Shown here piece after piece: positions 11,689 to 58,690 of a stretch of 64,000 bases of DNA; position 1 is the first letter of the stretch; each line of letters opens with the position of its first letter. Origin of the DNA: a bacterium (GTDB lineage: Bacteria > Latescibacterota > Latescibacteria > Latescibacterales > Latescibacteraceae); assembly GCA_021372535.1 (NCBI GenBank), contig JAJFUH010000050.1, positions 1 through 64,000 on the forward strand. Direction: 5' to 3'. Under the pieces are notes generated by a model. It saw only the letters and a program-made list of their open reading frames with translations. It was not told the origin of the DNA and searched no databases. A program made the translations under genes and the position numbers.

Positions 11689-11757
11689 AATAGATGCTGA
11701 AGCAAGTTCAGCATGACGGCGGTAATGTCACCCTGAATTTATTTCAGGGTCTATTGT
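11689..11757. repeat. REP-like paired hairpin, copy a
   Basis: Two hairpins face each other: 'atgctgaagcaagttcagcat' and 'accctgaatttatttcagggt', with outer ends 'aatagat' and 'tctatt' that are themselves inverted. The same design recurs near 23091, 57999 and 58612, with half-copies near 31824 and 33212. It lies between convergent genes. Confidence 0.75.
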
Positions 11758-23087: not shown

Positions 23088-23177
23088 TATGCATAGACCC
23101 TGAAACAAGTTCAGAGTGACGGGTTCACGATCGGGTCGTCATGCTGAACCTGTTTCAGCATCTGTCATCAATGATCC
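23088..23177. repeat. REP-like paired hairpin, copy b
   Basis: 'tagaccctgaaacaagttcag' and 'atgctgaacctgtttcagcat' form two facing hairpins separated by about 24 bases, followed by 'ctgtcatcaatgatc'. It lies within the minus-strand gene cluster between the Nramp and isomerase genes. Confidence 0.75.
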
Positions 23178-31617: not shown

Positions 31618-31960
31618 CATGATATTTAACCCGACCGATTCGAAAAAAATCAATGGAACGCGGATTTTCGCGGATTTGTTTTTTTCTCTGTTTCAATGTG
31701 AACGATCAATAATTCTAAAGATAGTCTATACATTCTTTTGTATGTATTTGTGTCTTAGTGTCTTTGTGGTAAGATTTTTTGAATTATTGCTCCGGCGGAT
31801 AAATAATGATACCAATAGCAGGAATAGATGCCGAAACAAGTTCGGCATGACGTCATCCGATATCACTGTTTAATCGCCGAAGCAATATCCTGATAAAAGT
31901 GATAAAAAACTGTTGTGCCGGGCAGAAAATCGGTATTAGACACTGACGAAAAGAAGGGTG
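31618..31960. repeat. Intergenic gap with composite repeat copy 2 and a half REP
   Basis: Positions 31651-31785 carry the composite repeat ('ggaacgcggattttcgcgga' then, after about 70 bases, 'gtgtcttagtgtctttgtgg'). Positions 31824-31855 carry one arm of the REP-like element ('atgccgaaacaagttcggcat'), a hairpin with a 9 bp stem. Nothing else is recognised. Confidence 0.65.
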
Positions 31961-36133: not shown

Positions 36134-36352
36134 TTATACAGTTTTCTCCTTTCTGTCCATTTTTACTGTTTTTTCTTGAGCAGTTGACAATGATGTCGTA
36201 TCTATCTCATCGGTGATTTCATGTGCTGCTTTTTTAAATTCATTGATTCCCTTGCCAAGTCCACGGGCGATTTCAGGTATTCGTTTTGCGCCGAAAAGAA
36301 GAAGAATAACCATAAATATGAGTATCAGTTCTGATGGACCGACACCAAACAT
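36134..36352 (-). CDS. tatA: Sec-independent translocase component TatA/TatE
   Basis: A 72 aa protein with the TatA pattern: a short N-terminal transmembrane helix (about residues 5-21), the FGAKRIPEIARGLGKG hinge and amphipathic helix (FG at 20-21), and a polar acidic tail. TatA forms the pore-like oligomer that exports folded twin-arginine proteins. At least five proteins encoded in this window have likely Tat signals. No tatB or tatC is next to it. An AAGGTGG ribosome site supports the start. TatA, TatB and TatE are hard to separate by sequence alone; the length and sequence favour TatA/E. Confidence 0.9.
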   Translation of the reverse strand: MFGVGPSELILIFMVILLLFGAKRIPEIARGLGKGINEFKKAAHEITDEIDTTSLSTAQEKTVKMDRKEKTV

Positions 36353-36928
36353 ATTGCCACCTTCCCATCTTCAAAGTTATACATTGGGTATAAATATAGT
36401 ATTATGGATACACCCGCTTTGCCGGATACGACAAAGCAGGTGATACATGGACTGTTCAAACGGTATTGCGGCTCGGAAAGAAGACTATGTAAAATTATCC
36501 TTGAGGTTGAAGAAAAGAGGAGTATTAACACAAAAGAGAATAAAGGGAGCAGCAGAATTAAAAAGAATAGAGCGGTCTTTTATTATTCTTTGAATAACCG
36601 AAGATAATATCCGGTATTTGATAATAATGTGAGAATATTTCATATCAATACAATATAATATATATTTATAAAATATAAAAGAAGAAATTTATGAATTATA
36701 ATTTAGATTATAAATATAATAAATAATAATGAATTGAGTAAAATTCAGCGAAAAATATATTTATATTTAACCTTTCATTTTAAATGGAAAAAAATAAAAA
36801 AGCAATAAAAAAATACAAATATTTTTCTTTAAATAAGTTATATAATTATATATAGATTATATATATAATATTACAAATCAATTAGTTATAAGCATTATCA
36901 ATCAAAATTCGTGCAAAAAAATATTTTA
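36353..36928. other. Extremely AT-rich non-coding stretch
   Basis: From about 36600 to 36930 the sequence is almost only A and T, with long A and T runs and many TA steps. It lies directly upstream of a promoter-like sequence at 36929. A short frame near 36404-36607 lacks a ribosome site and family features and is not called. Such tracts can be curved DNA, UP elements or nucleoid-protein binding sites. Confidence 0.6.
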
Positions 36929-36958
36929 TTGACAGATTAGAATTTTCTAGTATATTAT
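36929..36958 (+). promoter_or_regulatory. Sigma-70-type promoter
   Basis: A perfect TTGACA at 36929-36934 is followed after 16-18 bases by TATATT (36951-36956) or TATTAT (36953-36958), each one mismatch from TATAAT. A start near 36964 would give a leader of about 250 bases before the gene at 37214. The AT-rich DNA upstream resembles an UP element. Confidence 0.65.
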
Positions 36959-36963
36959 CGCTG

Positions 36964-37120
36964 CAATTTAAACGACCTTAATAATACTGTTTGATTTTAT
37001 TCAAACAGTACCATTCTAACAACGTAACCGGTGAAGGGGGGTGGGGTCGAGTTACCATACGGTTTCATACATAGGTAATGCTGGAAGTGAGCGCTTGAAA
37101 GTATTTTGAGCGTTTTTTTT
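36964..37120 (+). ncRNA. Candidate structured leader or small RNA ending in a terminator-like hairpin
   Basis: Downstream of the promoter, ACTGTTTGA (36986-36994) pairs perfectly with TCAAACAGT (37001-37009). A G-rich segment (about 37031-37048) follows. GTAAC (37024-37028) can pair with GTTAC (37051-37055), while TTACC (37052-37056) can pair instead with GGTAA (37074-37078); the two pairings exclude each other. At 37092-37112 a nine-pair stem (two of them G-T wobbles) with a three-base loop is followed by eight T's, a terminator or attenuator. I do not recognise a known riboswitch class. It could be a leader regulating the gene at 37214 or an independent RNA of about 155 bases. Confidence 0.4.
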
Positions 37121-37213
37121 ATAAGTGTATTTAAATAAATCGCGTATTATCAATAAGTTGTATTATGCGCGTGTGTTTCAAAATCACAACAATTTTCAGG
37201 AGGAGGTACTACT

Positions 37214-38185
37214 ATGGATGCTCTGTCATCTGAAAAATCGAGTACGGAGTTTGTCAAACAATCCAATAACACCAAATTATATGTGTTTATTGGATTGTTA
37301 GTCGTTCTTGCCGCTCTGTCAGCCTGGCAGTTCTGGTCAATCAACAATAAAAACAATCAGATAAGTGTATTGCAGCAGGAAAAGCTTGCAGGTGAGACCG
37401 AACAGCAGAAACTCAAAGCTTCCATTACCGAAATCACCGATACCATCAATGAAGTTGCCAACAAACTCCAGGATGTCCGTAAAAAACAGGTCGCTATCAG
37501 CGATATCGTTACACGTTCAGAGGTAAATAATACACAGAAAGCCCAGATCATTAATGACATTACCGCTATTGAGGGACAGCTCCAGCAGGATAAAAAAGAT
37601 GTCGAAGGTCTGTTGGCCAAAATGAAAAAAACCGATATCAGAATCAAGTCTCTTGAGAAGATGGTAACTTCCCTCAAGAAAGAAATAGAGAAGAATGAAA
37701 AATCGATAGCTGAATTGAGAAGCACTATTGAAGAGAAAGATGTCATTATTAAAAATACACAGTATTCTCTGAAAACTACCGAAGATAACCTCAAGGTTGC
37801 ACAAGGCGATCTCGATCAGACCAGAGCTGATCTTCAGGACACCAGGAATGTTCTCGAGGAGACCAGAAATACTGCTTATTATGTGATCGGCAGCAAGGAT
37901 GAACTGAAAGCGGAAAACATTCTTTCAGAAAGCGGCAGATTCTACCAGAAGAAGAGCGTTGATCTTGCCGGTGAATTTGACACGGCTGCTTTCACGAAAA
38001 TTGATATAACCAAACAGAAAGTATTCGCGGTCAACTGCAGCGCTAAAGATGTAAAACTGTTTCCGCTTCGGAGTGATTCGAGCTATAAGCTGGAAGAAAC
38101 GGAAAAAGGCAAGTCGGTCCTGACCGTGGTCAATCCTGAAAAATTCTGGAAGATTCCGTATGTGGCCATAGTGGTCAAGGGATAA
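37214..38185 (+). CDS. Membrane-anchored coiled-coil protein of unknown function
   Basis: A 323 aa protein. A single transmembrane helix at about residues 23-43 is followed by a long coiled coil (about 48-225) with heptad-like Leu/Ile spacing. The C-terminal globular domain (about 225-323) starts AYYVIGSKDELKAENIL, a pattern I associate with coiled-coil proteins common in Bacteroidota, some labelled adhesins. There is no cleavable signal, so the coiled coil would project into the periplasm. A very strong GGAGGAGG ribosome site and the promoter at 36929 suggest high expression. A terminator follows at 38259. Confidence 0.7.
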   Translation: MDALSSEKSSTEFVKQSNNTKLYVFIGLLVVLAALSAWQFWSINNKNNQISVLQQEKLAGETEQQKLKASITEITDTINEVANKLQDVRKKQVAISDIVTRSEVNNTQKAQIINDITAIEGQLQQDKKDVEGLLAKMKKTDIRIKSLEKMVTSLKKEIEKNEKSIAELRSTIEEKDVIIKNTQYSLKTTEDNLKVAQGDLDQTRADLQDTRNVLEETRNTAYYVIGSKDELKAENILSESGRFYQKKSVDLAGEFDTAAFTKIDITKQKVFAVNCSAKDVKLFPLRSDSSYKLEETEKGKSVLTVVNPEKFWKIPYVAIVVKG

Positions 38186-38258
38186 ATTCCTGCGACAGGT
38201 ACGCATCAGTATTGACATGCTGGTTCTGATTATTTTATAATAATAACACTGCTGCTTT

Positions 38259-38296
38259 AAAAGAAGGATTTGCGGAAGTCCGTAAATCCTTCTTTT
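38259..38296 (+). terminator. Intrinsic terminator
   Basis: AAAAGAAGGATTTGCGG pairs with the downstream CCGTAAATCCTTCTTTT, leaving a small loop, and ends in T's. It closes the coiled-coil gene unit, 80 bases after its stop. Confidence 0.88.
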
Positions 38297-38376
38297 TACC
38301 TTGGAAGAAGCGTATTATATGCATTGAGGATAAATATATACTTGTTTGACTGTTTCCCGGTTAAAGGATTGATAGT

Positions 38377-39654
38377 ATGAACTTTCAGGTGATTACAACT
38401 ATCGCTGTTTTTGTGGTTGTATATCTCATTATTTCATTTGAATTGATAAATAAAGCATATATTGCCCTTTTAGGTGCAGGACTTTTTCTTGTTTTAAAAA
38501 TCATTCCCGTCGATACAGCCTTCAGCAAAGTTGATCTGAAAGTCATATCCATTCTTATCTCCACTATGATTATCGTCAATATTCTGAAAAAGACCGGTGT
38601 TTTTCAATATCTAGCCATAAAATCCTCAAAGATGGTTAAAGGCGATCCGATAAAAATTCTTATTTTACTTATGGTTATTACGGCAGTGATATCGGCATTC
38701 CTTCCCAATGTTACAACTATCATGATTTTAGGCCCGGTTTCAATCCTGATTGCAGTCGAGCTCGGTATTTCACCTGTTCCGTTTCTTATTCTGCTTGCCG
38801 TTGCATCGAATATCGGCGGTACTGCCACATTGATCGGCGATCCTCCCAATATCATGATAGCTTATGGCGCAAATCTGACGTTTAACGCGTTTATATTCAA
38901 CCTGAGCCCGCTTATTCTTGTCATAATGGTGGGCAGTGTTGGTATTACCTATGTATTGTTCAAAAAAGTTCTTGTCGTACCTTTTGAACGCCGGGCACGT
39001 ATTATGGAGTTTGATGAAACAAAGACAATCACCGACAAGCCGTTTCTTATTAAGTCCCTCGTCGTACTTGGGCTCGTGATCGCAGGATTCTTATTTTATA
39101 ATGTGATAAATCTTGATCCGGCGATCGTAGCGGTTTTCGGTGCCACGGTGCTTATGGTAATCACGAAAAACAAACCTGATGAAATTTTCGGCGAGGTCGA
39201 ATGGACGACCATATTCTTTTTTGTCGGGCTTTTTATTATGGTCGGAACGCTCGAAGAGCTCGGTGTTATCAATTATCTTGCGCATGGAATGACAAAATTG
39301 TCCGGAGGTAATATTAAGACCGCGGCAATTACCATTGTCTGGGGATCGGGTATCCTGTCCGGATTCATCGACAATATCCCGTTTGTTGCGACAATGATTC
39401 CACTGATCAAGGACTTGAACTTACATATCGATCCGTCAGTCGGCAACGTACTCTGGTGGTCGCTTTCCGCAGGCGCCTGTCTCGGCGGAAATCTCACCCT
39501 GGTCGGCGCTTCAGCCAATGTCATTTCGGCCGGTATCGCCCAAAAAAACGGGTATACCATTACATTCATGGATTTTACAAAATACGGAGTTATCTACACC
39601 GTCATTTCTCTCATTGTCACAACTATCTATATATATGTAAGATATCTGTTATGA
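38377..39654 (+). CDS. ArsB/NhaD (SLC13/ion transporter superfamily) permease
   Basis: A 425 aa inner-membrane protein with about eleven hydrophobic segments. The repeat motif SNIGGTATLIGDPPNIMIA (about residues 147-165) and its second-half counterpart GACLGGNLTLVGASANVI (about 366-383) are diagnostic of the ion-transporter superfamily that includes ArsB, NhaD and P-protein-like permeases. Most use the sodium or proton gradient to move anions, or exchange Na+ for H+. Which ion is carried is not clear from sequence. The Ca2+/Na+ antiporter begins 52 bp downstream on the same strand. Confidence 0.83.
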   Translation: MNFQVITTIAVFVVVYLIISFELINKAYIALLGAGLFLVLKIIPVDTAFSKVDLKVISILISTMIIVNILKKTGVFQYLAIKSSKMVKGDPIKILILLMVITAVISAFLPNVTTIMILGPVSILIAVELGISPVPFLILLAVASNIGGTATLIGDPPNIMIAYGANLTFNAFIFNLSPLILVIMVGSVGITYVLFKKVLVVPFERRARIMEFDETKTITDKPFLIKSLVVLGLVIAGFLFYNVINLDPAIVAVFGATVLMVITKNKPDEIFGEVEWTTIFFFVGLFIMVGTLEELGVINYLAHGMTKLSGGNIKTAAITIVWGSGILSGFIDNIPFVATMIPLIKDLNLHIDPSVGNVLWWSLSAGACLGGNLTLVGASANVISAGIAQKNGYTITFMDFTKYGVIYTVISLIVTTIYIYVRYLL

Positions 39655-57998: not shown

Positions 57999-58083
57999 AG
58001 TATAGACTCTAAAACAAGTTCAGGGTAACGGATGTATGATCAGTACGTCATGCTGAATTTATTTTAGTATCTATCATCATTGA
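57999..58083. repeat. REP-like paired hairpin, copy c
   Basis: 'agactctaaaacaagttcag' and 'atgctgaatttattttagta' are two diverged facing hairpins. This copy is on the left side of the PilZ gene. Confidence 0.65.
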
Positions 58084-58609: not shown

Positions 58610-58690
58610 TGTAATAGACCCTGAAATAAATTCAGGGTGACATAAGCGCTGTCATGCTGAATTTGTTTCAGCATCTGTCATCAATTATCT
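58610..58690. repeat. REP-like paired hairpin, copy d
   Basis: 'tagaccctgaaataaattca' and 'atgctgaatttgtttcagca' form two facing hairpins, with 'ctgtcatcaattatct' at the end, closely matching copy b. It lies on the right side of the PilZ gene. Confidence 0.75.

Follow-up and report, generated by a model that had tools for sequence, protein, structure and literature searches.

The window is the whole stretch of DNA analysed, 64,000 nucleotides from a Latescibacteraceae genome of 5.35 Mb (95.9% complete). The element under study lies in a gap of 861 bases between tatA, on the minus strand at 36134-36352 with its start at 36352, and cbp1, on the plus strand at 37214-38185. The first two thirds of the gap are 24% G+C, and its very A+T-rich noncoding part, to which no strand is assigned, runs from 36360 to 36928 (23.7% G+C by composition). 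The gap ends in a plus-strand spacer (37121-37213) with a Shine-Dalgarno sequence, AGGAGG, directly before cbp1.

The gene at 37214 had been described in a first-pass annotation as a coiled-coil gene. Its product is indeed a coiled-coil protein with an N-terminal hydrophobic stretch, and it belongs to the Cbp1 family, scoring 154.1 bits against profile NF052320 (cut-off 90). The three homologues tested (L038, L046 and L049) also score above that cut-off. The family takes its name from a collagen-binding protein of Bacteroides fragilis, described in print as a collagen adhesin (PMC3949742). Besides this Latescibacterota genome, two others of its family have a Cbp1-family protein, one of the same genus (G001) and one of the same family (G003), with relatives at 44% and 50% identity. 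Seventeen more distant ones are in records of Bacteroidota groups or Chlorobi.

Downstream of cbp1 is a gene for a CitMHS/ArsB-like transporter (38377-39651). The transporter has a paralogue of 67% identity at G000:C181, elsewhere in the genome, that comes directly after a frame of 304 codons; the G001 orthologue comes after one of 307 codons. There is no frame of about 300 codons between cbp1 and the transporter gene in the window copy. Between the two genes, at 38212-38300, is a second promoter-terminator-gene arrangement. A 12/12 consensus promoter, TTGACA-18-TATAAT, lies 26 bases past the stop codon of cbp1; next come a 17-pair hairpin with T5 and the transporter gene at 38377. The window also holds a dispersed repeat with the core GTCATGCTGAAYNTGTTTCAGCATC, at 11693-11717, 23138-23162, 31827-31851, 58047-58071 and 58651-58675 (five matches within 3 mismatches, 0.00 expected). 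This repeat overlaps two stretches (23041, minus strand, and 58561, plus strand) that are among the best-folding in the window.

Promoter, terminator and predicted fold

The TTGACA-type promoter named in the first-pass annotation is found both by reading the sequence and by scans. It occupies 36929-36958 on the plus strand, with TTGACA at 36929-36934 and a spacer of 16 to TATATT or 18 to TATTAT, and has 11 of 12 matches. Only four places on either strand of the 64 kb reach at least 11/12, this one included, and the scans find no other strong promoter in the gap. Immediately 5' of the -35 element, a pattern search finds the UP-element-like sequence AAAAATATTTT (36917-36927, plus strand). The UP-element consensus is AAAWWTWTTTT. 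The pattern matches three times in 64 kb against 0.85 expected, which is weak, the gap being A+T-rich.

The terminator-like hairpin with eight T's described earlier is also there. An intrinsic terminator spans 37089-37120 on the plus strand, with a 12-pair stem (3 G-C pairs), a 3-nt loop and a folding energy of -10.0 kcal/mol on its own; the hairpin (37089-37115) runs into the T8 at 37113-37120. Since the gene upstream, tatA, is on the minus strand, a terminator on the plus strand cannot serve an upstream gene and must end a transcript begun within the gap. Under a strict rule that asks for a promoter with 11/12 or more matches, a hairpin with 7 or more uninterrupted pairs and a T-run of about six, and a distance of at most 320 nt, this is the only promoter-terminator pair on either strand of the 64 kb, the rule missing the pair at 38212-38300 with its T-run of five. 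The pairing of promoter and terminator exceeds chance.

Together they delimit a predicted noncoding RNA of about 155 nt (36964-37120, plus strand), its start placed from the promoter. The 157-nt stretch folds at -42.5 kcal/mol, matched by 0.3% of 1000 dinucleotide shuffles, and z against shuffles is -3.18, or -3.19 when the stretch is extended to 37123. Of 200 other 157-nt stretches sampled from the window, 5 do as well or better against their own shuffles, and the fold is thus unusual in the window and not unique. The stretch has a G+C content of 38% inside the 24% gap.

The predicted pair probabilities describe a three-way junction at 36973-37049 on the plus strand. P1 pairs CGACC with GGTCG (36973-36977 and 37045-37049; probability 0.91-1.0), P2 is a ten-pair hairpin (36985-37010; 0.82-1.0), and P3 joins 37011-37017 to 37038-37044 (0.81-0.85). 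A further hairpin, P4, follows at 37051-37079 on the same strand, pairing GTTACC with GGTAAT at 0.64-0.92; it contains the TTACC-GGTAA helix of the first-pass annotation. That annotation also had a perfect nine-pair hairpin. The hairpin at 36985-37010 is perfect and its length is ten pairs, a stem reached by 0.2% of 1000 dinucleotide shuffles. The G-rich segment reported there is present as GGGGGGTGGGG; allowing a G-quadruplex leaves the predicted fold unchanged. A contact between the loops of P3 and P4 (AACCG-CGGTT) was set aside, 14% being expected by chance.

Nothing beyond tiny frames is encoded in the RNA. The longest frame starting inside it and ending before the terminator has 27 codons from a TTG and lacks a Shine-Dalgarno sequence. 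A leader peptide was rejected, the small frames (6 codons from ATG, 15 and 22 from GTG, 27 from TTG) having no convincing ribosome site.

Relatives of the element

That no known class was recognised at first reading agrees with Rfam, which has no match over the window. A search of 36850-37300 alone returned four matches up to E = 10, all far below gathering, and 6S RNA (RF00013) was not among them. A genome-wide 6S search of four genomes gave nothing above the cut-off, with limited sensitivity (the control rang in 8 of 14, 4 of them over the cut-off). No known family appeared in the homologue loci either.

A covariance model, R1, was built from the single sequence, which limits its reach. Among 64 genomes of the phylum it matches this one only (E <= 1, stricter filters), and the result is the same when the four closest genomes are searched alone; a weak match in G029 (E 5.4) was treated as chance. 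When the window and 19 homologue loci (20 sources in all) are searched, R1 has one match besides the element itself, of 10.9 bits (E 0.93), lying some 2.4 kb upstream of the orthologue in G001. By DNA similarity, 23 of 60 genomes match at E <= 1, and, the window itself aside, all the matching stretches are of 44 bases or fewer. A 'distant' search of plasmids and two exact patterns run against viral contigs gave no relative either. A regulon operator was also considered. In the genome, the dyad of the hairpin, TACTGTTTGA-N6-TCAAACAGTA, is found at a single place even when 3 mismatches are allowed, and the viral contigs do not have it; because of this single occurrence in the genome, it is not taken for a regulon operator.

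These searches bear on the reading of the stretch as intergenic DNA that arose by chance or is decaying, such as a degenerate mobile or protein-binding element, and yields no transcript. The lack of a relative in the 64 phylum genomes, or in the plasmids and viral contigs as searched, speaks for such a reading. A promoter, a fold and a terminator in order on one strand, at 38% G+C in a 24% gap, speak against it, and we consider it quite improbable.

The first-pass annotation had offered conservation in homologous upstream regions as a check, and the element is in none of those examined. None of the 19 homologue regions has a terminator-like site within 450 nt upstream, with gene starts placed mechanically and with about 300 nt (L038) and about 270 nt (L059) of upstream sequence available at two of the loci. 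The 19 regions do not include three weak coiled-coil matches (L041-L043) or the more distant G006 homologue (L040); inspected by eye, the sequence upstream of L040 shows nothing resembling this leader. A crude rule, which measures back to the nearest frame of at least 100 codons and overlooks tatA in the window, puts the gap before the gene at 1413 nt for the window and at 105-451 nt for the 17 homologues with an estimate. In the same-genus genome G001, cbp1 on contig C319 is followed first by a frame of some 300 codons and then by the orthologue of the CitMHS transporter, and the element is absent upstream. The cbp1-citMHS neighbourhood is thus partly shared with G001 while the predicted RNA is absent there. 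Because none of the 19 regions has the terminator and the G001 orthologue lacks the element, the element is, as judged by these comparisons, not tied to cbp1.

Attenuation, read-through and possible targets

The first-pass annotation named a riboswitch or attenuator first. The 5' untranslated region of cbp1 would then be a regulated leader, with a ligand, a protein or the ribosome setting read-through at 37120. The layout is suitable in that promoter, structured leader, terminator and gene are all on one strand and no better cbp1 promoter is found. The 6-codon frame, with its ATG at 37078 and its stop at 37096-37098 within the 5' arm of the terminator, could in principle couple translation to read-through.

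The expected switching parts are another matter. Both motifs of the proposed competing helices are present, with GTAAC at 37024, GTTAC at 37051, TTACC at 37052 and GGTAA at 37074; what does not stand is competition beyond chance. The leader has 11 five-pair helices (9.9 +/- 4.1 in shuffles) and 3 mutually exclusive helix pairs against a shuffle mean of 12.2. In the ensemble, pseudoknots excluded, GTAAC-GTTAC has a probability of 0.0 and TTACC-GGTAA one of 0.75-0.92. An attenuator requires something able to occupy a terminator arm. The best duplex of the leader with the 5' arm is -6.0 kcal/mol against a shuffle mean of -8.8, and 96.4% of shuffled leaders pair at least as well. With the 3' arm the best duplex is -8.7 kcal/mol, reached by 17% of shuffles, and pairings of the arms with downstream sequence are within the shuffle range (15% and 7%). 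These duplexes give no antiterminator, that is, no alternative pairing beyond chance that would disrupt the terminator. Since the three-way junction is unchanged when the 5' arm is kept unpaired and the arm duplexes stay within the shuffle range, the junction and terminator halves look independent in the models, with no visible switching logic. Adding the lack of an Rfam match and of the element before the homologous genes examined, we regard a regulated leader as unlikely. No riboswitch evidence was found, the element is ordinary in kind, and the riboswitch candidacy should be dropped unless new relatives appear.

A leader need not be regulated, and the main rival is a passive one. In this explanation, cbp1 is transcribed from 36929, a leaky terminator merely dampens its expression, and the RNA has no function. 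No promoter above chance is found for cbp1 downstream of the terminator: nothing in 37050-37213 scores better than 6.9, and shuffles give 6.8 +/- 1.5. As cbp1 lacks a recognisable promoter after the terminator, leakage may feed it, which makes a passive leaky leader the main rival. The similar layout before the next gene, at 38212-38300, would likewise suggest a local habit and not a special RNA. However, the ten-pair hairpin and the fold energy both beat shuffles, and a passive leader needs neither. On balance we find this explanation doubtful, though less so than a regulated leader.

Three unpaired regions of the RNA were tested against 14 translation-start regions, all in the window; these 42 comparisons gave no convincing target. 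Four comparisons fall at or below 3% of shuffles, where about one is expected; they involve the transporter gene, a Gfo/Idh gene (two) and a 212-aa gene, and cbp1 is not among them. The P3 loop (the AACCGGTGAAGG region) would pair with the CitMHS/ArsB-like start region at a nominal -17.3 kcal/mol, reached by 2% of shuffles, a level at which about one of 42 tests is expected by chance. These hits are a lead only. That an orphan regulatory RNA controls its neighbourhood in trans through this pairing of the P3 loop with a start about 1.2 kb downstream is a reading that we hold to be very improbable.

A candidate small RNA and its known counterparts

What is observed is a promoter, a stable fold, a terminator, tiny frames only and no relative found in the phylum. 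From these features we infer transcription, the transcript ends and action in trans. As far as the sequence shows, the element is a clearly delimited orphan RNA unit of an ordinary kind, probably a small RNA specific to its lineage or a terminated leader. The independent small RNA that the first-pass annotation had listed as its alternative fits best, having its own promoter and terminator and no long frame; we put the probability of a stand-alone, lineage-restricted noncoding RNA gene, probably for a small RNA acting in trans, at a little under one half. RNA polymerase would start near 36964 from the strong sigma-70-type promoter and transcribe about 155 nt, which would fold into the three-way junction and the hairpin. 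Transcription would stop near 37120, at the T8 of the terminator, most likely yielding a trans-acting small RNA that works through its unpaired loops; leakage past the terminator may supply some cbp1 mRNA. Against this reading, cbp1 has no recognisable promoter in 37121-37213, which favours a read-through leader; the element is not conserved, being single copy in the 64 phylum genomes; the five of 200 sampled stretches fold equally well relative to shuffles; and the target comparisons turned up nothing convincing. Should the element be transcribed, it would represent a small RNA of a phylum that has been little studied; no report of a small RNA or riboswitch in Latescibacterota was found in the literature searched.

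With riboswitches and leader-peptide attenuators, the element shares a structured region between promoter and gene and a terminator at its end. It differs from them in lacking an antiterminator, a conserved aptamer, an Rfam match and conservation before homologous genes. With 6S RNA it shares a similar length and a strong promoter, but 6S RNA is a rod with a central bubble, whereas the RNA here is predicted to form a three-way junction. Compared with the intergenic, trans-acting small RNAs of bacteria, the candidate is known from sequence alone, with no known target and no relative by sequence or covariance. It would share with them a sigma-70-type promoter, a length of 100-200 nt, a stable fold, an intrinsic terminator and restriction to a lineage.
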